A stretch of DNA of 64,000 bases from an uncultured Bacteroidota bacterium (GCA_937912115.1 CALDOI010000258.1:16906-80905), one strand, 5' to 3'; counted from the first letter of the stretch, positions 30,831 through 46,253 are shown. The notes: generated by a model from the letters alone, not told the origin. Numbers and translations are program-made.

Positions 30831-30886
30831 TCCTACTTGAAACTATCATTTAAAAAAATTCAGTAATTTCGGCAAAGTTAACCAAT

Positions 30887-31795
30887 ATGTTCAAAATGAT
30901 AAGTCCTCCAATTCTAAAAAAGGGAGATAGGATCGGTATTGTTGCTCCAGCTCGTAAAATAGCAGAAAGAGATCTGTTAGTTTCATTTGATATTATTCGT
31001 CAAAACGGATATGAAGTTGTATTTACCGATAATCTTTTTGCAGAAGAAAATCAGTTTGCCGGCAGCGATGATCTGAGAGCCAATGAATTACAAATTATGC
31101 TTGATGATGATTCAGTCAAGGCAATTATGTTTGCTCGAGGTGGTTATGGAGGTGTCCGCATTATCGACAAGATTGATTTTTCGAAGTTTGTTGAAAATCC
31201 AAAATGGTTAATAGGATATAGCGATATTACTGTTTTTCACAGTCATATATCTCGTAACTTTAGTATCCAAACACTCCATGCAACTATGCCAATTAATTTC
31301 AATGAAAATGATGAAACTGCGTTGGAATCTTTATTTAATGTGCTTCAGGGATCGTTAATAAATGTTGAATTTGAAAGTAATTCATTAAATAGAATAGGAA
31401 ATACGGAAGGTTTATTAACAGGAGGTAATTTATCTGTATTATACAGTTTGTTAGGCAGTTGTTCATTCCCTGAGACTGATGGTAAAATTTTATTTTTGGA
31501 AGATTTGGATGAGTATTTATATCACATCGACAGAATGATGCTTGGATTAAAGCGTGCCGGAAAACTTGAAAATCTTTCCGGATTATTGATTGGTGGAATG
31601 ACCAAAATGAATGATAATGATATCCCTTTTGGAAAAACAGCAGAAGAAATAATTCGTGAAGCAGTTGATGAATATAATTATCCCGTTTATTTTGGATTTC
31701 CAGCCGGACATATTGAAAATAATATAGCTTTGGTAATGGGCCGTAAGGTAAGCATTATCTATGATCAACAAAAAAACGTGTATACTCTAAGATAG
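30887..31795 (+). CDS. LD-carboxypeptidase (S66 family)
   Basis: PPILKKGDRIGIVAPARKI; MFARGGYGGVRIID; WLIGYSDITVFHSHI; ILFLEDLDEYLYHIDRMM. Confidence 0.94.
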   Translation: MFKMISPPILKKGDRIGIVAPARKIAERDLLVSFDIIRQNGYEVVFTDNLFAEENQFAGSDDLRANELQIMLDDDSVKAIMFARGGYGGVRIIDKIDFSKFVENPKWLIGYSDITVFHSHISRNFSIQTLHATMPINFNENDETALESLFNVLQGSLINVEFESNSLNRIGNTEGLLTGGNLSVLYSLLGSCSFPETDGKILFLEDLDEYLYHIDRMMLGLKRAGKLENLSGLLIGGMTKMNDNDIPFGKTAEEIIREAVDEYNYPVYFGFPAGHIENNIALVMGRKVSIIYDQQKNVYTLR

Positions 31796-31828
31796 ATTAT
31801 TTTTGTCGATTCTTAAAGATTTTAAAGC

Positions 31829-32527
31829 ATGCAAGATCCATTTGAGTCAGCATTTTACGATTATTTGAACGGAAAAGAATCCGCCGAAATTACTGTCCAT
31901 TGCAACAAAGGTGAAGTCGAAATAATCCCCATTTCTTATTTTTTCAGGGAGTATAACGGAATGCCTGAACTAGAAAAAAAAGCATTGAGTTTAACCAATG
32001 GAAAGATACTGGATATTGGTGCAGGTTCTGGAATTCACTCCCTGTATCTTCAATCAGAAGGAAAGGATATTACATCTCTCGATATAAAGCCGGGGTTTGT
32101 TGAGGTAATGAAAAAACGGGGACTAAAAAATGTAATTCTCTCAGATATTTTTGACTACAAAGATGGTAGATACGATACATTGTTGATGCTAATGAATGGT
32201 ATTGGTTTTACTAAAAACTTTGAAGGACTGTCAGCATTTCTTAAACAAGCTAAAGAACTTCTGGTACCAGGGGGGCAAATATTATTGGATTCTTCAGATT
32301 TGCTTTATTTATATGAAGATGAAGACGGTTCTTATTCAATTAATCTTAATGATAACTATTACGGCGAAGTTGAATATATAATAGAATACGAAGGAGTTAA
32401 GGGAAAACCGTTTAATTGGCTTTACATTGATTTTGATAATTTGGCCATGCATGCTGAACAAGCCGGGTTTAAATGTGAGCTAATTTTTGAGGATGACCAC
32501 TTCAATTATTTGGCAAGATTGTATTGA
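31829..32527 (+). CDS. Class I SAM-dependent methyltransferase
   Basis: KILDIGAGSGIHSLYLQSEGKDITSLDIKPGFVEVMKKRG; YDTLLMLMNGIGF. Confidence 0.9.
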   Translation: MQDPFESAFYDYLNGKESAEITVHCNKGEVEIIPISYFFREYNGMPELEKKALSLTNGKILDIGAGSGIHSLYLQSEGKDITSLDIKPGFVEVMKKRGLKNVILSDIFDYKDGRYDTLLMLMNGIGFTKNFEGLSAFLKQAKELLVPGGQILLDSSDLLYLYEDEDGSYSINLNDNYYGEVEYIIEYEGVKGKPFNWLYIDFDNLAMHAEQAGFKCELIFEDDHFNYLARLY

Positions 32528-32546
32528 TTTTTGGATGAATTCAAGG

Positions 32547-32681
32547 TTACTCATCTAAAGTAAAAAAGTCCTCCACATTGTTGTATTTGGGAATAATAAC
32601 ATATTTACCTGTGCGATCAATATACCCCCATAATTTATCAACCCTTGCTCTACATAATCCATTGTGGAAATCATGTATCAT
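32547..32681 (-). pseudogene. WG-repeat protein fragment (44 aa)
   Basis: Below the ORF-track size cutoff; hand translation gives MIHDFHNGLCRARVDKLWGYIDRTGKYVIIPKYNNVEDFFTLDE*, a single WG-repeat-like unit. Confidence 0.6.
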
Positions 32682-32709
32682 TATAAAATATTGTTAATTA
32701 TTGAGTCAA

Positions 32710-35262
32710 TTATATTATTATCAGCTTTCTAATAATTCTATTGTTTTTTGTATTGATAAAAATCAAATAATAACCAGGTAAGAGAGATGAAACATCTATC
32801 ACATTATTTCCATTATTAATATATTGGTTAATAAATGTAGTTCCACTAATATTAGAAATCCTGATTTCTGATTCATCTGATGTATTCTTTGTAAGAACAG
32901 TGAGTTTATCGTTTGCCGGATTCGGATAAATTTGTGCTCCGGCAAAATCCAGTTTATTATCTACACCTGTATTGTTAACGTCAATAATAACAAAGCTTGT
33001 GTCAGAATGATTATAGCCATCAAAAATTTGATACTTGAAATAATCAATACCTGAAAATCCGGGATCTACGTAATATGAAAATGAACCATCTGCAGATAAT
33101 GATAGTTCACCATGAGATGGGTATTCGGTAACTTCTGCATTCATATATTTGCCATCAATATCAAAATCATTGCTTAGAATTCCATCTATTGTTTCAATAG
33201 CCAAACCATTGCTATGATCGATAACATAATTATCACAAACAGCAATAGCATTGGCATTGAATTGGGAAATATTACTTGTTATAAACTGAAGGCTTTGTTT
33301 TTCAACTTCTTCAACATTTTCCACAATACTCCAGACTTCCCACATATATCTTCCGGAAGTTTCAATAATACAGTTGTTATGCAAAATCGAGAAAGCAATA
33401 CCATCAGAAATAGTGTCTTCGGTTTCAGATGTACTTCGGTCATCATGAATAACAGACATTGTACTTGGGTCAATAACCTGTAACAGCGACCATGGCAATC
33501 TTATCTCAATGTCTTCATTACTAATAATTACAGCGTCATTACTAGACGAAGGCATTTCGGTACGCCGTAATTCCAGATCACCAATATATTGTATTTCATG
33601 ATTGGGTTGGTTATTTTTCCATCTAACAATATTCCAGGGTGCTCCATTAGTAGGGATTGAATGATAGAGTTGTTCAGGAGGTGATATTCCATGCCAAATA
33701 CCGAAAAGATCATAGGCTTGAGTAACAAATAGTTCGGCTGAAAAGTTGGTTATTTTAAGAAGAAATTCAGCTCTATTGTTAATGGCTTCCCCTCCCGGTA
33801 AAATGGCTTCACCTAATTCGAAAGAATATGTATCAATGGCAAGCCAAATAGTATCTATGTCAGTTAGTTCGTTTTTTATATTTAGTTTGAGGCTAAAAAA
33901 ACTAAAGTCTGTTTTTATGGAAACCTCACTGATTGGACATGTGTCGTTAAAAGTTTCAAATGTTTGGAAAGGGGTATTATTACTTTCAAATTTTTTAAGA
34001 CCAAAATTTTGTTCGGCTGCGGTAATGTTATGCCACAAAACTCTTCGCTCAGGATTAAAATCAATGGGGTCGGTAATCCAGGTGCGCTTAAACCATTCGT
34101 CAATCCAAGCAAAATACATTCCTCCTCCGCACCCTGACTCCACAATATTATTCATCATTCGGATTGTAAATATACCCTGTTCCAACTCACTCATTCCTCC
34201 ATGGTGCATGCCTGAAGATGAATAATGTGCACTTCCCCAACTGGAGGGAACCCCATATTCGGCAATAATAAGAGGGTAACGGTTATAATGGTTTTTTAAG
34301 TCAGATAGATAACCCAGATAACTATTTTGGCCAATGTAATCCTCAAAGCTTTGGTAAACAGGATCATTGCTAATGAAATCCGGGTAGTAAGGATAAGCGT
34401 GGTATGTGGCGAAGTAACCTGCCGGGGCCAATGAAAAATCGATTTCTGCAAGATCAATATGTACAGTATCCTCCCATCCAATTTCTGTGGGATGTTCAAT
34501 AGGGTCGAGGGTTGGCCAGTTTGAGTAGCTTACCGGACGTTCAGTTTGGTATTGTTGTCGTTCGTATTTTACCAAATGATCAAGCCGTGCAGTTATCCAA
34601 ATTTCTGATGGATTTCCAGCATCTAATGAAAAAACCTCACCGTTAAATGATGTTTGATTACTGTGTAATTCGTTTGTAATCATCACCTCATCAGGATGTG
34701 TTTCACGACCAATAATATAAGCAAAAATCCATTTTGATGCATCGGTGTTATAATTCCCAAAGGCTTTGCCAAACCTAGGTTCAATGATTTTATTTCCATG
34801 AATGCAATCAATTACTTCTTCTAACATCAAATTAAAAGTATCTGTGAGATAATACAAGTCTTTATTATAACCTTCAAGTTCTTCATCTAACCAAACCCCA
34901 TGAAATACATATAGAGGACTTTGTTGGTTTTGTAAATTAAATGAGTCAAGAACCTGATAAAATCGAGGATAGTGGAGAGTATAAATTCGAATATTGTTAA
35001 ACCCGGATTCCTTTATTTCTTCAAACCAATTCCAGTATTGTTGTCTTGATGCAGCAAGCTCACCCGGAAAAGTTCCCGGTATTGAAACTCCAAGATTTAC
35101 TCCGTTTAATAAAACAGGTGAGTAACTATGCCCATTCCATATGGTAAGCGATTTGTTATTCGTTGAAAAAGGAATATTGTTATCAGGATTACAATCGAGT
35201 TCCTGACCAGAAATATTAGTAAATATTAGTAATAGAATTGTAGCTATGTATAGTACTTTCAT
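32710..35262 (-). CDS. Secreted glycoside-hydrolase-like TIM-barrel protein with cadherin/Ig-like module and T9SS C-terminal domain
   Basis: Signal peptide; VLLNGVNLGVSIPGTFPGE...GFNNIRIYTLHYPRFYQVLD; PLIIAEYGVPSSWG (acidic residue in glycosidase-like context); ILSNDFDIDGKYMNAEVTEYPSHGELSLSADGSFSYYVDPGFSGIDYFKYQIFDG; C-terminal AQIYPNPANDKLTVLTKNTSDESEIRISNISG...NNRIIRKLIII. Confidence 0.75.
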   Translation of the reverse strand: MKVLYIATILLLIFTNISGQELDCNPDNNIPFSTNNKSLTIWNGHSYSPVLLNGVNLGVSIPGTFPGELAASRQQYWNWFEEIKESGFNNIRIYTLHYPRFYQVLDSFNLQNQQSPLYVFHGVWLDEELEGYNKDLYYLTDTFNLMLEEVIDCIHGNKIIEPRFGKAFGNYNTDASKWIFAYIIGRETHPDEVMITNELHSNQTSFNGEVFSLDAGNPSEIWITARLDHLVKYERQQYQTERPVSYSNWPTLDPIEHPTEIGWEDTVHIDLAEIDFSLAPAGYFATYHAYPYYPDFISNDPVYQSFEDYIGQNSYLGYLSDLKNHYNRYPLIIAEYGVPSSWGSAHYSSSGMHHGGMSELEQGIFTIRMMNNIVESGCGGGMYFAWIDEWFKRTWITDPIDFNPERRVLWHNITAAEQNFGLKKFESNNTPFQTFETFNDTCPISEVSIKTDFSFFSLKLNIKNELTDIDTIWLAIDTYSFELGEAILPGGEAINNRAEFLLKITNFSAELFVTQAYDLFGIWHGISPPEQLYHSIPTNGAPWNIVRWKNNQPNHEIQYIGDLELRRTEMPSSSNDAVIISNEDIEIRLPWSLLQVIDPSTMSVIHDDRSTSETEDTISDGIAFSILHNNCIIETSGRYMWEVWSIVENVEEVEKQSLQFITSNISQFNANAIAVCDNYVIDHSNGLAIETIDGILSNDFDIDGKYMNAEVTEYPSHGELSLSADGSFSYYVDPGFSGIDYFKYQIFDGYNHSDTSFVIIDVNNTGVDNKLDFAGAQIYPNPANDKLTVLTKNTSDESEIRISNISGTTFINQYINNGNNVIDVSSLLPGYYLIFINTKNNRIIRKLIII

Positions 35263-35344
35263 AATTGAAAAATTAGTATTTCGAATTTTATAAAATTAAT
35301 TATAATTTTGAATTGAATTTCAATAGAACAATTAACTTTACACC

Positions 35345-36529
35345 ATGGCTCAAAATAAACGAAGATTTGTTTTTAATCTAGTTATAATTTTAATTGTTTT
35401 AATCCCGGTAATAATGTTAGTAGGATGGCTATTAACACCTAAAAAAACGACTAATATACTCATAGTAGACAAAACTGTATTAACTAAGGATGCTTATGAA
35501 CATAAAGGATTGATCTGGACACTTAAACATCGTAAATATGTAAAACCTGACAACAATTTCTACAACTTAGATGAAGACTACTTAGGTTTTTTTCCTAAGT
35601 CGGATAAGCAATTTGAAATCAATGATCTCAAAAATCTTACCTTAAGTCAAATTGATAGTATTTCGGATACAATTAATATGGTTTACTATACCGACACTTA
35701 CGGTATATACCACAATGAATGGTATTCCGACTCACTACAAAGTGAACACTCAAAGAAGGTTTATGGCGGATTAGATATTAAAGATTATGAGTTATTAAGG
35801 AAGATGAAAGAGAAGAAAAAGCTTATTTTGAGCGAATTTAATTTAATAGCAAACCCAACTTCAATAGCCGTTAGAAGCAAGGTTGAAAATCTATTTGGTT
35901 TTCAGTGGACGGGATGGACTTTAAAATATTTTGAATCGTTGGACACAGCTACTAATCACGAATTGCCAAATTGGGTGATTAATAACTTTATGGAACAGCA
36001 TAATGGTCGTTGGCCATATACTAAATCAGGAATCGTATTTGTAAATGAAGATGAAACTATCTTTATCATGCAAAATGAAGATCATCTTAAACACGAAACA
36101 CCTATTATTACTTCAACAACTTATGCTCACGAGAAGTATAATATTCCTGCTACAATTAATTATCCCTATTGGATAGATATTAATTATGTATCCGACAGTG
36201 TTAATACTGTACTAGCAAATTATAATATTAATACCACTGATGATGGTGATTCATTATTGAGTTATTATAATATTCCATCGAGGTTTCCGGCAGTTTTTGC
36301 CCATACAAGCAATTATCAATTCTATTATTTTGCAGGTGATTTTTGCGATAATGAAATGCCAATGATTACAACATATTTTAAAGGAATTACATGGTTGAAG
36401 CGTTGGCTAATGGAAAGGAGTGACCTAAATAATAGAGAGTTATTTTTTTGGAATTACTATTACCCAATGATTAAAGTGATAATGAATGATAATTATGATC
36501 AATTAAAAAATAGCAAAAAGATTAATTAG
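35345..36529 (+). CDS. Membrane-anchored hypothetical protein, possibly exopolysaccharide-associated
   Basis: One N-terminal TM, then extracytoplasmic domain with SEFNLIANPTSIAVRSKVENLFGFQWTGWTLKYFESLD; divergent from the GH-like gene and convergent with the GT2 gene. Confidence 0.6.
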   Translation: MAQNKRRFVFNLVIILIVLIPVIMLVGWLLTPKKTTNILIVDKTVLTKDAYEHKGLIWTLKHRKYVKPDNNFYNLDEDYLGFFPKSDKQFEINDLKNLTLSQIDSISDTINMVYYTDTYGIYHNEWYSDSLQSEHSKKVYGGLDIKDYELLRKMKEKKKLILSEFNLIANPTSIAVRSKVENLFGFQWTGWTLKYFESLDTATNHELPNWVINNFMEQHNGRWPYTKSGIVFVNEDETIFIMQNEDHLKHETPIITSTTYAHEKYNIPATINYPYWIDINYVSDSVNTVLANYNINTTDDGDSLLSYYNIPSRFPAVFAHTSNYQFYYFAGDFCDNEMPMITTYFKGITWLKRWLMERSDLNNRELFFWNYYYPMIKVIMNDNYDQLKNSKKIN

Positions 36530-37994
36530 TTTTTTTTGCAAAACCCTGCCTTACCATTTTGCCCCATCCTGTTTTTTTCATTATAAAGAAATCGAAATTA
36601 CCTTTTATTCCCCACCAGAGTACTAAAGGATGATAGATTATAGGCTCAATCAGTACATTAATAAATAGTTTAAAAATGTCCCGTTTCTTTTCGTATCTGT
36701 GAAATGTTTTTTCCTCAAATAATATAGCAGCCGTTGACAGTGAAACAGCAAATGAATAAACAAAAACCAATAAGAAGATAAAGAAATCCCAATTTGGTGC
36801 TCCCAACAATGCAATAATTATGAAATATAATATACCAAACAACTCAAAAATGGGCGCTAACCATTCAAAGAAAAACCAATAAGGATAACCCAATAGGCCC
36901 ATGCTCCCATAAGTGGGGTTGAAAAAAACTTTCTTATGTAGAAATAGAGTTTCAATTGTACCACGTGTCCATCTGTTACGTTGACCGCCTAATACTTTTA
37001 AAGTTGTTGGTACTTCGGTCCAGCAAAGAGGATCGGGCACATATTTTATTTTATATTTGAGATTGTTTTCGGCCATGTAACGCCTCATTCTCACAACCAA
37101 CTCCATATCTTCGCCTACTGTTTGGGCAAAGTAGCCTCCGCATGCAATGGCAATTTCTTTGTCGAATAAACCAAGTGCGCCTGAAATCAGTAATAGTCCA
37201 TCAAGTTCGCTCCATCCAATTCGTCCCATTAAAAATGCACGTGTATATTCCAGTACCTGAAATCTGGCCCATAAATTTGTTGGAATGCGCACATCACGAA
37301 TTTGTCCATCTTCAATAATACATGAATTAGCTACCCTAACCGATCCGCCGGTGGCTATAACTCTTTTCGACTTCTCCTCAATAAATGGCTTTACAAGTTT
37401 AAGTAAGGCATCCGACTCAATTATTGAATCAACATCAATTGCAACAAAAAAATCGTTATTCGATATGTTTATGCCTGCATTTAAAGCATCTGCTTTTCCT
37501 CCATTTTCCTTATCAACAATCAGTAAGTTTGCAAACGAACTATTTCGAGATTTATATACTCCTCTAATTTTCTGACAATCGAGATAATAATAATGAGCAT
37601 AATCTACCTTTTCCAGATCGTATGCTTCGATGGCTTTGTTTAAGGTTTCGTCTTTACTCCCATCATTAACAACAATCACTTCAAAATCGTGATAAAAAAG
37701 AGACATTAAGGCTCTTATATTATCTACAATTGTAACCGATTCGTTATAGGCAGGTGCAATTAATGAAATAGAAGGAGCAAAAGGAGATGAGATAATCTCA
37801 TCATACTTCGCATAGCTGCTCTTCTTCATATATTTACGCAATGCTATTGCTGATATTAAAGAAAGAAATATGTATGATGCAATAATGGCTACAACATAAA
37901 CTAGTATTATATTTTCCAGAATTAATCGTATTATTTTAAAGAAATCATACATACTAAATTCTTTTATCAGTGATGTGTAATAGTATATCATCAA
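36522..37994 (-). CDS. Processive-type family 2 glycosyltransferase (likely start at 37952)
   Basis: SLIAPAYNESVTIVDNI, VVNDGSKDET, NGGKADALNAGINIS, AIDVDSIIE, GEDMELVVRMRRY, QRNRWTRGTIETL; C-terminal TM segments. Confidence 0.9.
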   Translation of the reverse strand: MMIYYYTSLIKEFSMYDFFKIIRLILENIILVYVVAIIASYIFLSLISAIALRKYMKKSSYAKYDEIISSPFAPSISLIAPAYNESVTIVDNIRALMSLFYHDFEVIVVNDGSKDETLNKAIEAYDLEKVDYAHYYYLDCQKIRGVYKSRNSSFANLLIVDKENGGKADALNAGINISNNDFFVAIDVDSIIESDALLKLVKPFIEEKSKRVIATGGSVRVANSCIIEDGQIRDVRIPTNLWARFQVLEYTRAFLMGRIGWSELDGLLLISGALGLFDKEIAIACGGYFAQTVGEDMELVVRMRRYMAENNLKYKIKYVPDPLCWTEVPTTLKVLGGQRNRWTRGTIETLFLHKKVFFNPTYGSMGLLGYPYWFFFEWLAPIFELFGILYFIIIALLGAPNWDFFIFLLVFVYSFAVSLSTAAILFEEKTFHRYEKKRDIFKLFINVLIEPIIYHPLVLWWGIKGNFDFFIMKKTGWGKMVRQGFAKKTN

Positions 37995-39657
37995 GCTCAG
38001 GCTTCAATTCCTTAACAATAATTTCGGCCTGTCGTTTTCCAGAAAAGCTAATGTTATAAAGGGTTTTAAGTGCTACTAATCTAATGCTAAAATCATTATT
38101 AAGTAATATGGATTCTTTAAGGAAATCTATTTGGTTTTCATGTGGTGTTTTGCCAATAGAATATAATATTTCCAATTTATTTTTGTGGTTTTCGTTTTGA
38201 AAAGCTTTTGTAAGGTAGGTTATAAGTTCAGATAACCCTAACTCACCAACAGCTGAATAGGCTAATTTCCTAACAAGTTCATTGGGGTGACTGATTAAGG
38301 TAACTATTTCGTTTTTAGCATCATATTGCTTATATATAATTACCATTTTAAGCGCAAATATTACAACGGCATCATTTTCCAACAACAACCATTTCTTAAA
38401 TGCAGGAATAGTAATATCATATTTTTTTACACTTGCATGAACATTTAATTGTTCCCAATCGGTAAAATACTTAACAATAAGATCAAGAAAGCCGAAGGGA
38501 TTTTCTTTATTCAGTCTTACAAAAGCAATTGTAGCTTCCGATCGTAATTCATCGTTACGACTTACTAAATATGGTTTTATATAATATTCGGCATTTTCAA
38601 TATCCATATTTGCTAATTCTTGAAAGCCCTTAATTTTTATATTCCATTTCCAACTCTTGGTTTTAGCGATTGATACCTTACCGAGCCGGAGGTTTATATA
38701 TAATGCTCTTAGTTTATTAGCTATATCCCCTTCTAAACTATCGTGCAAATCAATAATTAATTCCACAAGAATATTTTTTCGTAGCATCGATCGCTGCTTG
38801 AAAAGTACAGAAGGAACAATGTTTTCATTTTGTTCTTTAAACAAATAATCAGCAATAATCTCATGATATCTATCCTTGAGGATACTAGTCTTTTTCTTAC
38901 GATAATTCCCCCATATTCTACTTGTGAATATGACAACTAAAAGTACTACTGAGAGTAAAACAAAATAACCAATAAGCAGTACTACCATGAATAATACCAG
39001 ATTACTGTATGAAAGAAAAAGTAAATATTTTCCAATACCTAATAGTGATGCAGGTAGGTGTTTATCCATCCAGATTTCGATTATGGAAACAATACTCTTT
39101 CTTTTATTCTTTAGATGTTTCAATTTTTCTCCCGAAAGGCTATCAGATTTTATTAATAAAGGACGAGAATTGCCATTATTGATATTGGTAATTTTATCAA
39201 CACTATCATTAGAAGTTACAATACTTTCGGACGGGTTAATTGTTGAGGATTCGGAAATATCTGTTTTATTTTGTTTTTCTCTAAAGGTCAATAATTTATC
39301 ATAATCTGAATCAAAACTTACCCTGCTGGAATTAACAAATTTCACAATAAAAGCATCAGGTACTTTATGTTTATTTATTACTAAAAATAATGTGTCGATT
39401 GCATTAATGAGTTCATTAAACTCATATATGGTATATTTATAATAATTCTTTTGGCGATATACCTCAATAGGTGTATCTAATTTTTTCACCTTTCTCAGAG
39501 AGTCGATAGATAGCTGTATTTTATAGCTTGATACTATTTGTATTTTGTAAACTATCTGATCTGAACTATTTTCAATTCTGTTTTCTGAGGCAAAAGCAAT
39601 TATAGAGATAGCAAGAAATGCGATAGGAAATATAATATGTTTAATTACTTTGATCAT
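37954..39657 (-). CDS. Signal peptide / SPOR-like periplasmic domain / TM / cytoplasmic HEAT-repeat protein
   Basis: N-terminal signal; YKIQIVSSYKIQLSIDSLRKVKKLDTPIEVYRQKNYYKYTI SPOR-like stretch; long TM; C-terminal HEAT repeats (NELVRKLAYSAVGELGLSELITYLTKAF). Confidence 0.7.
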   Translation of the reverse strand: MIKVIKHIIFPIAFLAISIIAFASENRIENSSDQIVYKIQIVSSYKIQLSIDSLRKVKKLDTPIEVYRQKNYYKYTIYEFNELINAIDTLFLVINKHKVPDAFIVKFVNSSRVSFDSDYDKLLTFREKQNKTDISESSTINPSESIVTSNDSVDKITNINNGNSRPLLIKSDSLSGEKLKHLKNKRKSIVSIIEIWMDKHLPASLLGIGKYLLFLSYSNLVLFMVVLLIGYFVLLSVVLLVVIFTSRIWGNYRKKKTSILKDRYHEIIADYLFKEQNENIVPSVLFKQRSMLRKNILVELIIDLHDSLEGDIANKLRALYINLRLGKVSIAKTKSWKWNIKIKGFQELANMDIENAEYYIKPYLVSRNDELRSEATIAFVRLNKENPFGFLDLIVKYFTDWEQLNVHASVKKYDITIPAFKKWLLLENDAVVIFALKMVIIYKQYDAKNEIVTLISHPNELVRKLAYSAVGELGLSELITYLTKAFQNENHKNKLEILYSIGKTPHENQIDFLKESILLNNDFSIRLVALKTLYNISFSGKRQAEIIVKELKPELDDILLHITDKRI

Positions 39658-39663
39658 TGGCTA

Positions 39664-40956
39664 TTAAAAAAACAGATGTGTTTTTAATCCAAATGATAGT
39701 ACATCCCTGTTATTATCTTTTTTGAACTCTTCATTTTGATACGCAAAATTTCCTTCTATAATTATACGATCAAAAATAAGATGCTGGTAACTAAACCTAA
39801 TTCTATATTTATTTAATTTGTAAAGTTCGTAGTCACCAACATCATTGCCAGGGTCATCGGGCGTGCTACCGGTTCCTATATTTATGTTTAGAAAATTATC
39901 TTTTGAGTTGAAATAGCTTCTAAAATCAAGATAATATGATTGTTCAACATCTGAATTTTTAGGAGATAGATATGGTCTGAACGACACCCAGAAATTTCTA
40001 AAATAATATCCAATTGAGCCTGTATAAATCAATAGATCTTTTGTGCCACCAGTATCAAGTATAAATTGTAAATACCTTACTCCAAGCGAGGCCTCAAAGT
40101 TTTTCGGAAGTTTTTGGTAAAACTCAAATGCGGCTCTATATTTAGGAAATACCAAATTGGAAGAATATGCGAACGAAACATATGTATAATTGGTTTTGCT
40201 AATCTTAGGATATGCTTCAAGTTCATACTGAAATCCAGCTTCTTTTTCAAATATACTTTCATCCAGTTTAACAATATCACCAATATATGCCCTTGCAATA
40301 ATTGGTCCCAGTGTAGTTTGCCTGGTATAGCTTAATGCAAATAAATTCCATCTGCGTGTCCATGGTTCATCAAAATACTCATAAGTATATTCCACCGACA
40401 TCTTGTTTAGAATATTTGCATGCTTAAGCTTTCGCAATAGCTCAAGAGCATCTTTGTTTGACGGGTTAATAGCAAGTAATGCACGTATGTCGCGTTTTGC
40501 CTGTGAGGTTTGTCCCAGTTTAATTTCCAAGCTTACTTTTTTTGCGATAAAATTTTCATCATTTGGATAATAATTCAAAGCCTGATTGCATGTAAATAAA
40601 GCTAGGGCGTTATTTTCATCCCAAGTTTCAACATCTATTAGTCCATCCAATGCGTCATAATATTTTTTTCTAATTAAAATTATCTCATTAAATATTTTTC
40701 TTGAGGAGTCATAATTGTGTTCCCAGGCAAGGGTTCTTGCAATCAGTGTTTTAGCATCTAAATAATCAGGGTAATCGTCAAGAATATTTTGACTTATTTT
40801 TCGTGATAACTGTAATTCTTTATTATATGCTGCTTTCTGTGCGATGCTGAACAGTGAATCTGGATTACTAATTTTAATATCCTGAGCAAAAAGTGGATTC
40901 ACATAAATGCTAAGTATTGTCAGTATTAAAATCAATAATGGTAATTTAGTTTTCAT
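39664..40956 (-). CDS. TPR protein with YaiO-type outer-membrane beta-barrel
   Basis: Signal peptide, N-terminal TPRs, then YEYFDEPWTRRWNLFALSYTRQTTLGPIIARAY...FEASLGVRYLQF beta-rich barrel. Confidence 0.82.
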   Translation of the reverse strand: MKTKLPLLILILTILSIYVNPLFAQDIKISNPDSLFSIAQKAAYNKELQLSRKISQNILDDYPDYLDAKTLIARTLAWEHNYDSSRKIFNEIILIRKKYYDALDGLIDVETWDENNALALFTCNQALNYYPNDENFIAKKVSLEIKLGQTSQAKRDIRALLAINPSNKDALELLRKLKHANILNKMSVEYTYEYFDEPWTRRWNLFALSYTRQTTLGPIIARAYIGDIVKLDESIFEKEAGFQYELEAYPKISKTNYTYVSFAYSSNLVFPKYRAAFEFYQKLPKNFEASLGVRYLQFILDTGGTKDLLIYTGSIGYYFRNFWVSFRPYLSPKNSDVEQSYYLDFRSYFNSKDNFLNINIGTGSTPDDPGNDVGDYELYKLNKYRIRFSYQHLIFDRIIIEGNFAYQNEEFKKDNNRDVLSFGLKTHLFF

Positions 40957-41318
40957 TGCTGATTTCTTAATAGTTTTTTAACTCTAATGCCCAATTCAAG
41001 TGGACTGAAAGGTTTAACAACATAATCATCTGCACCAAGGTCGAATGCTTTAAGTACTGTTTCCTCAAGACCTATTTTGGAGAGTACGATTATTGGAGTA
41101 TCTAGTTTCAACTCACTGCGGATTAAAAAAATTAACTCTTGTCCATTCATAAATGGCATTAGCAAATCGGTAATAATTAAGTTGAACTTTTCGCTTCTCA
41201 ATAGCTCTGAAGCTTCTTTACCATCTTTAGCTGTAATAACAGTATAACCATCTCGGGTAAGTTTAAACTCAATGGTTTTTAATAGCATGTAATCATCTTC
41301 ACAAACCAGTATGCGCAT
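40953..41318 (-). CDS. Single-domain response regulator
   Basis: ILVCEDDYMLLKTIEFKLTRDGYTVITAKDGKEA...LIITDLLMPFMNG...GADDYVVKPFSPLEL; ATGA overlap with the downstream YaiO-type gene. Confidence 0.93.
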   Translation of the reverse strand: MRILVCEDDYMLLKTIEFKLTRDGYTVITAKDGKEASELLRSEKFNLIITDLLMPFMNGQELIFLIRSELKLDTPIIVLSKIGLEETVLKAFDLGADDYVVKPFSPLELGIRVKKLLRNQQ

Positions 41319-41329
41319 TATTTGATATA

Positions 41330-42103
41330 TTATAAGTTGTAATCAATTTTTATTTTATCAGTAACTTGATGGCATTCATCGCTTACATTTTTAAATAAAT
41401 CTTTAATTTCTGCGATGTTTATATTTTCAAAACTATAGTTTTCAATATCATCCAGGTTTTTTGCAATACTTTGAACACCCACAAATGAAATTTCTGACGA
41501 ATACTTATGTGCCAGAAATTTTAATTCCTCCCAATTTGATTGATTAATTGCATTTTCCATGTTTTGCAATACCATTGGAGTATTAACTACAAAATAACTT
41601 AACATTTCTTTGATAAATGTTTTATCACCACCAGTAAACTCTTCAAGATATGATAAGTTATACTCAATAATTTTATTTTCGTTAAAAGTATTGTTTTTTT
41701 GGGATGTTTTGGATTGTTTTCGTGTTAAATATTTATCGCAAACCACCTTAATACTTTCACGATTAAATGGTTTAGAAATAATATCTTCCATTCCAAGTTC
41801 CAGAAATTCTTTTTGTTTTGCCGGGCTTATATGACTTGTAAAACCGATAACCGGAGTTGAATGATTCATATTGTTTACATCGGATTTAATTAGTTTTGTT
41901 GCATCTGAACCATTAAGTACAGGCATTTCAATATCCATCAAAATTAAATCATATTTATTTATGATGGATTTATCGATAGCTAATTGCCCATTTTCAACAA
42001 TTGTGTAATTATTATTCAATTCCTGCATTATTCGTTCAATAACTAGTTGATTGAATGTTGAATCTTCGGCAATAAGTATATTAAGAGGCTCTGTATTTTC
42101 CAT
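41330..42103 (-). CDS. Response regulator with C-terminal Hpt domain
   Basis: ILIAEDSTFNQLVIERIM...LILMDIEMPVLNG...DIISKPFNRES receiver; C-terminal WEELKFLAHKYSSEISFVGV Hpt motif. Confidence 0.88.
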   Translation of the reverse strand: MENTEPLNILIAEDSTFNQLVIERIMQELNNNYTIVENGQLAIDKSIINKYDLILMDIEMPVLNGSDATKLIKSDVNNMNHSTPVIGFTSHISPAKQKEFLELGMEDIISKPFNRESIKVVCDKYLTRKQSKTSQKNNTFNENKIIEYNLSYLEEFTGGDKTFIKEMLSYFVVNTPMVLQNMENAINQSNWEELKFLAHKYSSEISFVGVQSIAKNLDDIENYSFENINIAEIKDLFKNVSDECHQVTDKIKIDYNL

Positions 42104-42302
42104 AAATTAGATTTTAGGTTTATCAAATGCTGTACCACGTTCAGTAAAAAGTTGTAATGCGCATAAATACAGCTGAATATAAAATCAACCCTTTTTAGTA
42201 AAGTGTAAAAATGAGAAAAATAGATTAATAATTACACACATTAATAATAATTCTATTTAATTAACTAAAGAATTTTTATAAATTTATCAAAAATAGATTA
42301 CT

Positions 42303-45026
42303 ATGGAACTGCAAAATGAACTTAGAAGACAACTTGAATCTGAAATAAAAAAGAACCAATCAATACTTGAGGGATGTGTTGATGCTGTTATTACAATAAA
42401 TCAGGTTGGAATTATTGAGTTTTTCAATAAGGCTGCAGAAGCACTCTTTGGTTATAAACGTGATGAAGTAATTGGAAAAAATGTATTGATACTCACACCA
42501 CCTGAATATCACTCAAGGCATGATGGATTTTTGAAAAGCTATTTGGATACAAAGGTTGCAAAAGTTATAGGATTAGGAAGAGAGGTAAATGCATTAAGGA
42601 AGGATGGAGTTGAAACTCCCATTTTGTTAACCTTAAGTGAGGCAATTGTTGATGGGAACTATATATTTACCGCATTTATAAAGGATTATAGAGAAAAGAA
42701 AAAAAACGAGGAAGAGTTAAGGAAGTTGTCGTTGGTAGCCAGTAAAACTGACAATACTGTAATTATTACTGATAAGCATCGTCAGATAGAATGGGTTAAC
42801 GATGGTTTTACTCGAATGACAGGTTATTCGCTTGACGAGGTTAAAGGTTTAAATCCGGGGACTTTTCTGCAAGGGGAGGGGACTGATAAAATGGCTCTTG
42901 AGAGAATGAACGAAAAACTTAAACTCTCAACACCATTTACTGAGGAATTACTAAATTATAAAAAGAACAAAGAGCCTTTTTGGGTTTCAATAAACATTAC
43001 ACCCATCCTAAATGACCAGGGGGAGATAACCAGTTACATAGCAATTGAAAATGATATTACTGCAAAACGCCAGTTGCAGGATAACCTCGAAGAAAATCAA
43101 AACAGATTAATTGAAACACAAAAAATTGCCGGATTAGGCACCTGGGAATATCTTATATCAAATAAGAAAATTACCTGGAGCCCTGAAACTTTTAGAATAT
43201 TTGGTGTAGAAATTAGTGAGAATGCCCCCGATTTTGATCACTATATTAGTTTAATCCATAAAGACGACAGAAGCAAGTTTATTAACTTCATCAGGGAAAC
43301 TATTGTTGATATTAAAGAAAATGAAGTCGAAATCAGAAATGTACTATCCGATGGAAGTATCAGGTATACATATGGTCGCGCCAGACCAATATTGGAAAAT
43401 GAAAAAGTGGTTAAACTTCTTGGTGTAGTTCTTGATATTACCGAAAGGAAACGGATTGAGAATGAGCTGACAAAAGAAAAAGAAAAAGCCGAAGAATCAA
43501 CAAGGGCTAAGGAGATGTTTTTAGCCAATACAAGCCATGAAATCAGGACACCGATGAACGCCATAATTGGAATTTCAGAGCTTCTTAAAAAAACTAACCT
43601 TGATGAACAGCAACACGATTACCTGGATATAATTGAGAATTCAGCTGATAACTTACTTTATTTATTAAATGATATTCTTGATGTTTCTAAAATCGAATCT
43701 GGTAAACTTGAATTTGAGCAAACAGGATTCAAAATGATTGAGGTGATAAAAAGTGTTTTAAAATCATCAATGTATAAAGCTAAAACAAAGAACCTTGAGC
43801 TATTATGCAATTGTGAAAATGAGAATGATGGACTGATATTAATTGGGGATCCTGTGCGCTTAAATCAGGTGCTATTAAACCTTGTAAATAATGCCATTAA
43901 ATTTACCGAGAAAGGAAGCATTTACATTAATTTATACATACTTAGTGAATCTGAAAACAAAGTAAAACTTAGTTTCAATGTTATTGATACCGGAATAGGT
44001 ATACCTGAGGAAAAACAAAGACTAATTTTTGAAGACTTTCAACAGGTTGATACCAGTACTACCAGAAAATATGGAGGAACGGGATTAGGATTATCAATTA
44101 GTCGCAAACTTGTTAATTTAATGGGAGGAATGCTTAAAGTTGAAAGTGAAGAAGGTAAGGGGGCTCATTTTAGTTTTGAGTTGGATTTTGAACGTGGAAC
44201 TCAAACGGATTTGGCTGATTCAAGCATTAATCACGATTCAAATTTTGAACAATTTGATCTCGAGAACAAGAGAATATTAATAGTCGAAGATCAGGAGTTT
44301 AACCTTCTGGTTGCTCAGCAAATTATCCGGCCCTATGGATGTATTGTAGATAATGCGTTTAACGGCAAAGAGGCCATAAATAAAATTACAGATAACAATT
44401 ATGATTTGATTTTAATGGATATCCAAATGCCAATTATGGATGGAATTGAAACTACTCAGTTTATTCGTAACCATATGCCATTGCCAAAATCCAATATTCC
44501 AATTGTTGCTTTAACAGCAAATGCTATTAAAGGCGATAAGGAAAAGTATTTGAATCTGGGAATGAATAATTATTTGTCAAAACCATTTAAAGCCAATGAT
44601 CTAATGTCTGCGATTGTTAAGGAGTTAAAGCTTGATTTATTGATTACTGAAAAGTTTGTTGAGGATAAAACAGATTTTGAAGTTGATAAATTATACGACT
44701 TATCACAAATAAAAGAAATGGCAGGAGGCGACTCAAGTTTTGTTGTATCAATGATTAAATCGTTTATCGAGCAAAGTAAAATGGCATTCGATGAGATCGA
44801 TGTCACAATAAAAGCTCAAAATTATGAAGAACTTGCAAAGGTCTTTCATAAATATAAAACCATTTATTCTTTCATGGGTATAGGTTCAATATTTAATGAG
44901 TTTGTTAAACTTGAAGATATGGCGAAGTCAAGTCAGCCATGGGATGATATACTTAAGATTATTGAACGAATATCAAATAAATTGAATCAGGTTTATCTTG
45001 ACTTGGATGATGAAACCGAATCTTAA
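42303..45026 (+). CDS. PAS-containing hybrid sensor histidine kinase with REC and Hpt domains
   Basis: PAS domains; NTSHEIRTPMNAIIGISELL H-box; GTGLGLSISRKLVNLMGG; REC ILIVEDQEFNLLVAQQII...LILMDIQMPIMDG; C-terminal VFHKYKTIYSFMGI. Confidence 0.95.
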   Translation: MELQNELRRQLESEIKKNQSILEGCVDAVITINQVGIIEFFNKAAEALFGYKRDEVIGKNVLILTPPEYHSRHDGFLKSYLDTKVAKVIGLGREVNALRKDGVETPILLTLSEAIVDGNYIFTAFIKDYREKKKNEEELRKLSLVASKTDNTVIITDKHRQIEWVNDGFTRMTGYSLDEVKGLNPGTFLQGEGTDKMALERMNEKLKLSTPFTEELLNYKKNKEPFWVSINITPILNDQGEITSYIAIENDITAKRQLQDNLEENQNRLIETQKIAGLGTWEYLISNKKITWSPETFRIFGVEISENAPDFDHYISLIHKDDRSKFINFIRETIVDIKENEVEIRNVLSDGSIRYTYGRARPILENEKVVKLLGVVLDITERKRIENELTKEKEKAEESTRAKEMFLANTSHEIRTPMNAIIGISELLKKTNLDEQQHDYLDIIENSADNLLYLLNDILDVSKIESGKLEFEQTGFKMIEVIKSVLKSSMYKAKTKNLELLCNCENENDGLILIGDPVRLNQVLLNLVNNAIKFTEKGSIYINLYILSESENKVKLSFNVIDTGIGIPEEKQRLIFEDFQQVDTSTTRKYGGTGLGLSISRKLVNLMGGMLKVESEEGKGAHFSFELDFERGTQTDLADSSINHDSNFEQFDLENKRILIVEDQEFNLLVAQQIIRPYGCIVDNAFNGKEAINKITDNNYDLILMDIQMPIMDGIETTQFIRNHMPLPKSNIPIVALTANAIKGDKEKYLNLGMNNYLSKPFKANDLMSAIVKELKLDLLITEKFVEDKTDFEVDKLYDLSQIKEMAGGDSSFVVSMIKSFIEQSKMAFDEIDVTIKAQNYEELAKVFHKYKTIYSFMGIGSIFNEFVKLEDMAKSSQPWDDILKIIERISNKLNQVYLDLDDETES

Positions 45027-45035
45027 AATTTATTA

Positions 45036-45350
45036 TACACCAATTAAATTATTGAGGTGTATAAATAACTACTTACTTATTTGCTCTTAATTATAAGCCA
45101 CAGATTAACAAATTTTTGATTGAAATCGCCAGAAATAATTTTCTCGAACTATACCTGTCTTCGATAGATATAACAATCTGTGCATTTTTGATTAAAAGAA
45201 GAGTTATACATTTTTAACTAAAATTAATTTTTTAATCTGTGAATCTGTGGCAAAATATTTTTCACATATTAATTGGCAGACTGATTGTATCTAAACGGTA
45301 TAGTTATCTAGATGTTAAAATAAGTAACTAAATGTACACCTCAATTATAT
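45036..45350. repeat. Nested imperfect inverted repeat (MITE-like) between convergent genes
   Basis: Outer arms ATTGAGGTGT (45051-45060) and ACACCTCAAT (45336-45345); inner arms GCCACAGATTAACA (45097-) and TCTGTGAATCTGTGGC (45236-45251). Confidence 0.55.
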
Positions 45351-46253
45351 TAATCGATTAAAACTTTGCCATCTTCTTTCCTCGCTTTCAATAAAAGAAT
45401 CAAATTTAGAAGGCTGCTCTATTTTAATAGAAATAGGCTTTTCAGTCTTTGGGTGGCTAAACCTCAGCTCCACAGCAGCTAAAAATAATCCCTTTCCCTT
45501 AAGTATGGGTCCTGTACCGTATTGTTTATCACCTACGATTGGGAAACCGTAATCAGCCATTTGAATACGTAATTGGTGAGTTCGGCCTGTATGAGGGTAT
45601 AGTTCGACAAGTGAAACCCACTCGGTTTTTAGTGATCTGCCACGACTAATACACTTATAACTTGATAATGCCTCTTGTCCGTTAATGGAGGTATTTATTT
45701 CACCACTATCATTAATATTACCGGCAACAATAGCCCGGTATTTTTTATGGATTTTCCGTTTTTCAAGTTGCTGGCCAAGTAGCATAAGTGTTGAAGCCGT
45801 TTTTGCAACTAATAATAATCCAGATGTTGGTCTGTCCAATCTGTGAACAGGACGGGCCCACTTTAAAGCATCTGGTTCAGTTGAAATACTGATTTTTGAT
45901 ACTAAAGCATTTTGTATTGTTTTAAATTTGTTGCCACTAACTTCAATGCCGGCTGGTTTGTTTATTACCGCTAAATGTTCGTCTTCATAAACTACTTCAA
46001 GTTCTAGATCGTATGGTTTTGGTGGATTATGTTCAAGATCAATTAGAACTATTTCCTGACCTTCAACAATCCAACTTCCCGATGGAATCTTATTTCCATT
46101 AACTAACAACGCTCCTCTACTAATAATTTTCTTCATGCTGCTTCGTGAAGGGATTATTGTAAACACTTCTAATGCGTATTCCAATAAGCGAATTTTTGAA
46201 ACTCCGGATGGAACAGTATGTTTTTGGATGATAAACATTTTTAAATTTTTCAC
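45345..46253 (-). CDS. RluA family pseudouridine synthase
   Basis: S4-like N-terminus; VINKPAGIEVSGNK; PVHRLDRPTSGLLLVAKT; HTGRTHQLRIQMADYGFPIVGDKQYG. Confidence 0.93.
   Translation of the reverse strand: MKNLKMFIIQKHTVPSGVSKIRLLEYALEVFTIIPSRSSMKKIISRGALLVNGNKIPSGSWIVEGQEIVLIDLEHNPPKPYDLELEVVYEDEHLAVINKPAGIEVSGNKFKTIQNALVSKISISTEPDALKWARPVHRLDRPTSGLLLVAKTASTLMLLGQQLEKRKIHKKYRAIVAGNINDSGEINTSINGQEALSSYKCISRGRSLKTEWVSLVELYPHTGRTHQLRIQMADYGFPIVGDKQYGTGPILKGKGLFLAAVELRFSHPKTEKPISIKIEQPSKFDSFIESEERRWQSFNRLI

Follow-up and report, generated by a model that had tools for sequence, protein, structure and literature searches.

A Bacteroidota gene block with a conserved core for a probable exopolysaccharide synthase system with a candidate phosphorelay gate

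We analysed a window of 64,000 nt from an uncultured Bacteroidota bacterium (coordinates are counted from its first letter) and found in it a block of eight genes with the probable function of making a cell-surface sugar polymer, exporting it and trimming it. The block encodes a processive-type glycosyltransferase of family GT2, a HEAT-repeat membrane protein, an outer-membrane barrel protein of the YaiO type and a plausible phosphorelay. We give about an even chance to its being a synthase-dependent exopolysaccharide (EPS) system that is gated post-translationally by a phosphorylated receiver (REC) domain acting through the HEAT protein. The context gives good support to the synthesis and export of a polymer, and we infer the phosphorelay gating through the HEAT protein, including its site and direction. 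The locus is real, conserved and, as far as our searches reach, uncharacterised; no paper describing the operon was found in the open-access literature searched. Its features are as follows (lengths in amino acids, aa; evidence in parentheses).

32675–45376, no strand: whole accessory block, eight genes, 12.7 kb, absent in its entirety from the closest congener.
32710–35262, minus strand: glycosidase with a type IX secretion system (T9SS) tail, 850 aa (PF18962, TIGR04183, PF17963, fold matches).
35345–36529, plus strand: 394-aa protein with an N-terminal membrane anchor (14-row alignment, AlphaFold, Foldseek).
36522–37952, minus strand: GT2, processive-type polysaccharide synthase, 476 aa (PF13641, PF00535, motifs, hydropathy).
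37954–39657, minus strand: HEAT membrane protein, 567 aa (PF13646, HEAT_2).
39664–40956, minus strand: TPR and YaiO outer-membrane beta-barrel protein, 430 aa (PF19413, TIGR04390, TPR_19).
40953–41318, minus strand: RR1, receiver-only single-domain response regulator, 121 aa (PF00072).
41330–42103, minus strand: REC-Hpt phosphotransfer protein, 257 aa (PF00072, PF01627).
42303–45026, plus strand: hybrid histidine kinase, cytoplasmic, 907 aa (Pfam: three PAS, HisKA, HATPase, REC).

The eight genes, from 32710 to 45026, are a module gained or lost as one unit, because the site is empty in congeners that hold the same flanks. These flanks, metG and an rluA-like gene, were kept in all seven congeners compared, and the distance between them was about 2–4 kb in the six congeners that have both on one contig. 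In the closest congener (G002/L170, 88.6% nucleotide identity to the window across the left flank), window positions 30855–32674 and 45377–46250 align with about 160 bp between them, and no homologues of the block were found between the same flanks in L168, L169, L171, L172 and L173. A mobile element as the cause of the island was not supported, as the window has no tRNA and the block ends no long terminal repeats. The edges of the block are a better guide to which genes belong together than strand or spacing are. The initial annotation had placed the locus at 32710–42103; the genes that it listed were all there, but the interval was too short, since the kinase gene (42303–45026) also belongs to the block missing from congeners. 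As it had described, the minus-strand run from 42103 to 36522 (REC-Hpt, REC, TPR-YaiO, HEAT, GT2) is nearly gapless, with spacings of 11, −4, 6 and 1 nt: the GT2 ATG (37952) lies one base past the HEAT stop (37954), and the genes for RR1 (40953–41318) and the YaiO protein (39664–40956) share the 4 nt of an ATGA. The glycosidase and 394-aa genes are divergent, the latter converges on the GT2 gene with an 8-nt overlap, and the kinase gene is divergent from the minus-strand operon. A distant relative, L042, has the same set of genes (glycosidase, kinase, REC-Hpt fused to REC, YaiO, HEAT, GT2 and 394-aa protein).

Further evidence was obtained by comparing neighbourhoods across the phylum. The GT2 alone served as bait in an alignment-based scan, and the best 80 loci, all from Bacteroidota by record title, included members of the Bacteroidales, Flavobacteriaceae, Weeksellaceae, Sphingobacteriaceae, Chitinophagaceae and others; neighbours were counted in the 73 with sufficient flank (three or more genes on the upstream side of the GT2 and four or more on the downstream side). 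The HEAT membrane protein was encoded immediately upstream of the GT2 in 73/73 loci. A lone receiver gene was found upstream in 65 of the 73 by gene calling, and in 71 once tblastn had recovered six uncalled genes, so that it is embedded in the operon beside HEAT or YaiO in 71/73. The YaiO barrel was close to the GT2 in 64/73. As a control, the receiver test applied downstream of the GT2 gave a hit in 1/73 loci. Co-conservation is far above chance, and this comparison, which had been proposed as a check on the locus, came out strongly in its favour. In a phylum-wide draw, 94 of 396 Bacteroidota genomes, about a quarter, matched the GT2 at E ≤ 1e-80; relatives also occur in cultured Flavobacterium, Pedobacter, Sphingobacterium and Chryseobacterium. 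The window's own family is patchy, with a strong HEAT match in only one other genome among those drawn. A sister arrangement with one gene order (HEAT-like, GT2, TPR-YaiO, 735-aa protein) was seen at L039:7655-15375 and L040:9402-17081; there the GT2 is about 40% identical, the TPR-YaiO protein, with its domains checked in L039, is about 940 aa long, and the 735-aa protein has DUF4838 in L039.

The GT2 matched PF13641 and PF00535, and its hydropathy profile had one hydrophobic segment in the N-terminal part and about three in the C-terminal part. Its DG, DxD, ED and QRxRW motifs were invariant in 85/85 sequences aligned, and the nearest E. coli protein among those compared was PgaC (26% identity over 331 aa), which bears out the first description of a processive-type enzyme. 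Cellulose synthase structures aligned with the QxxRW/transmembrane (TM) half of the protein. Among the solved structures closest in sequence are non-processive GT2 domains, which cover only its N-terminal part and would fit a non-processive enzyme for a glycolipid or a protein glycan, with neighbours only loosely related. We consider this very improbable, as the processive motifs are invariant, no E. coli protein compared is closer than PgaC, the C-terminal half resembles cellulose synthase, and the gene order is fixed across the phylum. A grouping with non-processive glycosyltransferases, which the initial annotation had named as speaking against its proposal, was not found. In a tree with E. 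coli references the family stood apart from PgaC, YaiP, BcsA and the genome's other GT2s; this tree, in which the reference branches were very long and ArnC was misplaced, was not used for naming the polymer. Judged by its sequence, the GT2 is a separate processive-type group; it is predicted to be processive and to act in export, and it would polymerise the glycan and move it across the inner membrane.

The YaiO domain scored well above the cut-offs of PF19413 (175.6 bits; cut-off 23.9) and TIGR04390 (125 bits; cut-off 32) and is joined in one protein to TPR repeats (TPR_19), in agreement with the earlier call of a TPR plus YaiO-type barrel. The protein is presumably the export channel and would escort the polymer through the periplasm and the outer membrane.

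The HEAT protein consists of a signal/TM segment, a SPOR-like periplasmic part (residues ~25–140), a TM segment (225–243) and cytoplasmic HEAT repeats. Positive residues follow the TM segment in most homologues sampled, which fits a cytoplasmic location of the HEAT domain. Only residues ~225–470 (TM and HEAT repeats) are universal among homologues; G310 and W401 were invariant and Q403 and N428 nearly so. The SPOR-like N-terminus is lineage-specific, being confined to a minority of loci. It had been noted together with the TM and HEAT parts, and these two stand (PF13646), but the SPOR-like region gave no Pfam match; it matched SPOR-like stretches in other proteins of Bacteroidota at 20–39 bits, among them the C-terminal portion of an amidase and a protein in which such a repeat occurs twice. 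No relatives of the protein were found in viral contigs. HEAT repeats are a typical protein-binding scaffold.

RR1 matched PF00072 at 86 bits, without an output domain, and its phospho-acceptor Asp51 was kept in 68/69 homologues. The 257-aa protein matched, besides PF00072, the histidine phosphotransfer (Hpt) family PF01627 (29.4 bits vs a cut-off of 24.6). Thus, the two proteins first described as response regulators both contain a receiver, but the larger one is a REC-Hpt protein rather than a simple regulator; their place inside the operon is as described, and they are better read as the Hpt and the terminal receiver of a relay whose kinase lies outside the original interval. The kinase itself has an Hpt-like C-terminus by motif and by similarity to L042, below Pfam listing, and hybrid kinases of the same type occur in L042 and other relatives. 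REC-Hpt proteins occur here and in L037 and L043, and one is fused to the lone receiver in L042; stand-alone Hpt-like genes were found in L044, L046, L055 and L067, and Hpt inside kinases in L036, L042, L061, L077 and L100. The kinase, the Hpt and the terminal receiver of a His-Asp phosphorelay are encoded together, with their phospho-acceptor residues present, and hybrid kinase, REC-Hpt and lone REC plausibly form such a relay, which would run from the hybrid kinase to the Hpt and then to the lone receiver.

Pfam detected no DNA-binding domain among the proteins of the window unit, and no PilZ, MshEN or GGDEF domain in the unit. GGDEF was not found in the genome either, with a search that was positive in 8/14 control genomes. 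From the lack of a DNA-binding output in the unit and of GGDEF in the genome we infer post-translational control: once phosphorylated, the receiver most likely binds to the cytoplasmic HEAT domain and thereby switches the synthase. The HEAT protein and the phospho-receiver would then fill the role of the cyclic di-GMP (c-di-GMP) receptors in Pga, Bcs and Nfr. Alternatively, the relay of an EPS system may spare the synthase and control expression or another target, in which case the lone receiver would serve as a phosphate sink or as partner to a distant regulator. It is common for single-domain receivers to target other proteins and for two-component genes to lie near EPS genes, and in L067 a separate REC-AraC regulator is encoded next to the operon. 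Yet the receiver is embedded beside HEAT or YaiO in nearly all loci, the window unit lacks a DNA-binding domain, and the HEAT protein, a protein-binding scaffold, is an obligate partner of the GT2 (73/73). We regard this alternative as unlikely, though one to be taken seriously. Gating of the synthase by the phosphorelay through the HEAT protein is the most interesting proposal to test.

The glycosidase is predicted to be a T9SS cargo because its tail was above the cut-off (PF18962, 51.5 bits vs 27; TIGR04183, 45.7 bits) and the genome encodes the T9SS protein SprA at another site (SprA_N, 551.9 bits at C80). It also has an Ig/cadherin-like domain (PF17963). The fold of a moderate model (pLDDT, the predicted local distance difference test score, of 65) matched GH157, GH2, GH113 and GH5, while no sequence family matched and a search against solved structures hit only FlgD-like pieces of homologues. 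E187 (after strand 4) and E335 (strand 7) are invariant, in a modest model where the residue before E187 is Arg vs the common Asn. The protein is a putative member of clan GH-A, with homologues in 8 distinct related loci. A C-terminal T9SS tail was found on the GH-A proteins of the window, L042 and L035 only; delivery of the hydrolase by T9SS, as initially proposed, therefore fits this locus but not the system in general (2/8 related loci with tail). The homologues L049:11374-14085, L050:11427-14210, L052:11469-14216, L060:11582-14467 and L063:11560-14373, which have no C-terminal tail, carry an N-terminal carboxypeptidase-regulatory-like and FlgD-Ig-like module before the catalytic domain; this module has a (Y/F)PNP motif and resembles a sorting domain.

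The adjoining 394-aa protein, noted earlier as membrane-anchored, has one N-terminal anchor, followed by an extracytoplasmic domain (AlphaFold pLDDT 88.6), and was found in 13 distinct related loci. D42, K43, H53, D117, Y119, E164 and N166 were invariant in the 14-row alignment. Its sequence matched no solved structure. Because its glutamine-amidotransferase/ThuA-like matches (Foldseek) were weak and no Cys was invariant, we claim no enzyme activity for it. The exported GH-A enzyme and this protein would trim, modify or anchor the polymer.

Other loci have other enzymes around the same core. An LtaS/OpgB-like PF00884 domain was fused to the GT2 in 13 loci (1118–1178 aa) and separate but nearby in 20; in 32/33 it retains the Glu, Thr, Asp and His expected of it, and in no case does it share a locus with GH-A. 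The fusions are in L067, L072, L084, L091, L098, L099, L100, L102, L106, L107, L109, L112 and L119, from Weeksellaceae, Sphingobacteriaceae and Chitinophagaceae. The coupling of GT2 and LtaS is absent from this genome's locus, with only 27%-identical homologues elsewhere. At L076:11404-13773 and in similar Flavobacterium/Polaribacter genes, the LtaS-type protein has about 800 aa and a C-terminal extension related to the TPR part of the YaiO protein, with a separate YaiO gene after it. DUF4838 hydrolase-like proteins were found in L039, L064, L076, L115 and L121, a GH16-like protein (just under the Pfam cut-off) straight after the GT2 in L036, and a GH53 gene adjoining the GT2 in L037. The latter (L037:6629-8056) is split across two abutting open frames, which suggests a frameshift or a pseudogene. 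In Gillisia, a protein of the glycerophosphodiester phosphodiesterase family (PF03009; L103:11577-13430) is encoded right after the GT2, possibly a link to phosphoglycerol decoration. Such swapping of enzymes on a constant core would fit a family of polymers with differing finishing steps.

Several points weigh against the phosphorelay-gated EPS system. The barrel part of the YaiO protein has about 250 residues, which is short for a polymer pore, and no YaiO was found near the GT2 in 9/73 loci. About 45% of the distinct loci lack any of the accessory enzymes scored. The genome is about 90% complete, so that the absence of GGDEF is not absolute. The separate DNA-binding regulators of some related loci, such as the AraC-type REC protein of L067, mean that transcriptional control may also exist. 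The short barrel and the loci without a nearby YaiO also fit a system of the osmoregulated periplasmic glucan type, in which the GT2 makes short periplasmic or envelope glucans, decorated in relatives by the LtaS/OpgB-like enzyme, and YaiO exports no polymer; OpgB/phosphoglycerol transferase I is indeed among the best named models for the LtaS-type domain. We find this improbable, since E. coli OpgH is almost without similarity to the GT2 (E=0.04 over 64 aa, below inclusion), a TPR/barrel gene accompanies the GT2 in most loci, and the hydrolase in the block, predicted to leave the cell by T9SS, would have an extracellular site of action.

Tentatively, and at somewhat less than an even chance, we extend the proposed gating by the relay to a phylum-wide class of Bacteroidota synthases. 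In this class, a phosphorelay would replace c-di-GMP, the phospho-receiver would bind a HEAT adaptor, the GT2's obligate partner, and decorating or trimming enzymes would be interchangeable, including GT2-LtaS fusions that would make a phosphoglycerol- or phosphoethanolamine-decorated EPS. If true, this would give a polysaccharide machine open to genetics in a major phylum and a clear way to test whether a phospho-receiver controls a synthase directly. It would also assign a role to the YaiO barrel family and add fused synthase-phosphotransferase enzymes with a solvable product.

A 2020 survey describes five synthase-dependent exopolysaccharides with a c-di-GMP regulatory subunit, and Bacteroidota never appear in its text (PMC7112194). 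Of the features of such systems, the processive-type GT2 and the TPR and barrel encoded with the synthase are present here, while the c-di-GMP-binding domain or co-polymerase subunit (PMC7112194) is absent from the unit. By logic, the locus resembles these systems, and most closely NfrB-NfrA-YbcH of E. coli, with an inner-membrane GT2 with processive signatures, a TPR outer-membrane barrel and an anchored periplasmic protein in one operon (PMC8669469), and with a synthase that takes a small-molecule or signal input. For NfrB this input is c-di-GMP, which activates the enzyme via its MshEN domain (PMC8669469), whereas the GT2 here has no MshEN and the HEAT protein and phosphorelay are in the regulatory place. 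NfrA ends in NfrA_C (PF13283, confirmed on an NfrA control) and the barrel here is YaiO (PF19413); similarity between NfrB and the GT2 was negligible (14.5 bits). With MshEN and NfrA_C both absent, identity with Nfr was rejected.

The likeness to PgaABCD consists of a GT2 whose best match in the E. coli comparison is PgaC, a TPR-barrel exporter and a co-encoded glycosidase, although the hydrolase here is a predicted T9SS cargo vs the periplasmic PgaB. Identity with Pga (poly-N-acetylglucosamine) was rejected, since the PgaC equivalog TIGR03937 gave 122.9 bits, below its cut-off of 422.3, and no PgaA-, PgaB- or PgaD-type family was among the Pfam/NCBIfam matches of the neighbours. Thus, the logic of synthase, TPR/barrel and hydrolase that the initial annotation had taken from systems such as Pga holds for this locus, but by family model its GT2 and barrel are not of the Pga type. 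A cellulose system was ruled out by family scores and missing parts.

In the E. coli yaiO-yaiX-yaiP-yaiS cluster, for which no characterisation was found in the open-access literature searched, a YaiO-family barrel also adjoins a GT2. E. coli YaiO (257 aa) has no TPR part, however, YaiP is 24% identical to the GT2 over 226 aa, and the cluster has an acyltransferase and a deacetylase where the present locus has HEAT and the phosphorelay. A membrane GT2 with a transferase of the alkaline-phosphatase superfamily, as in the relatives but not in the window, is also found in BcsA-BcsG (phosphoethanolamine cellulose) and OpgH-OpgB; BcsG belongs to PF11658, whereas the transferase of the relatives is the LtaS/OpgB-like PF00884. 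For the proposed gating, a precedent is EpsW-EpsZ of Myxococcus xanthus, where a single-domain response regulator, in its phosphorylated form, stimulates an EPS enzyme post-translationally (PMC12802240). EpsZ is a phosphoglycosyl transferase that initiates a Wzx/Wzy pathway, whereas the target here would be a synthase-dependent GT2, reached via the HEAT adaptor.

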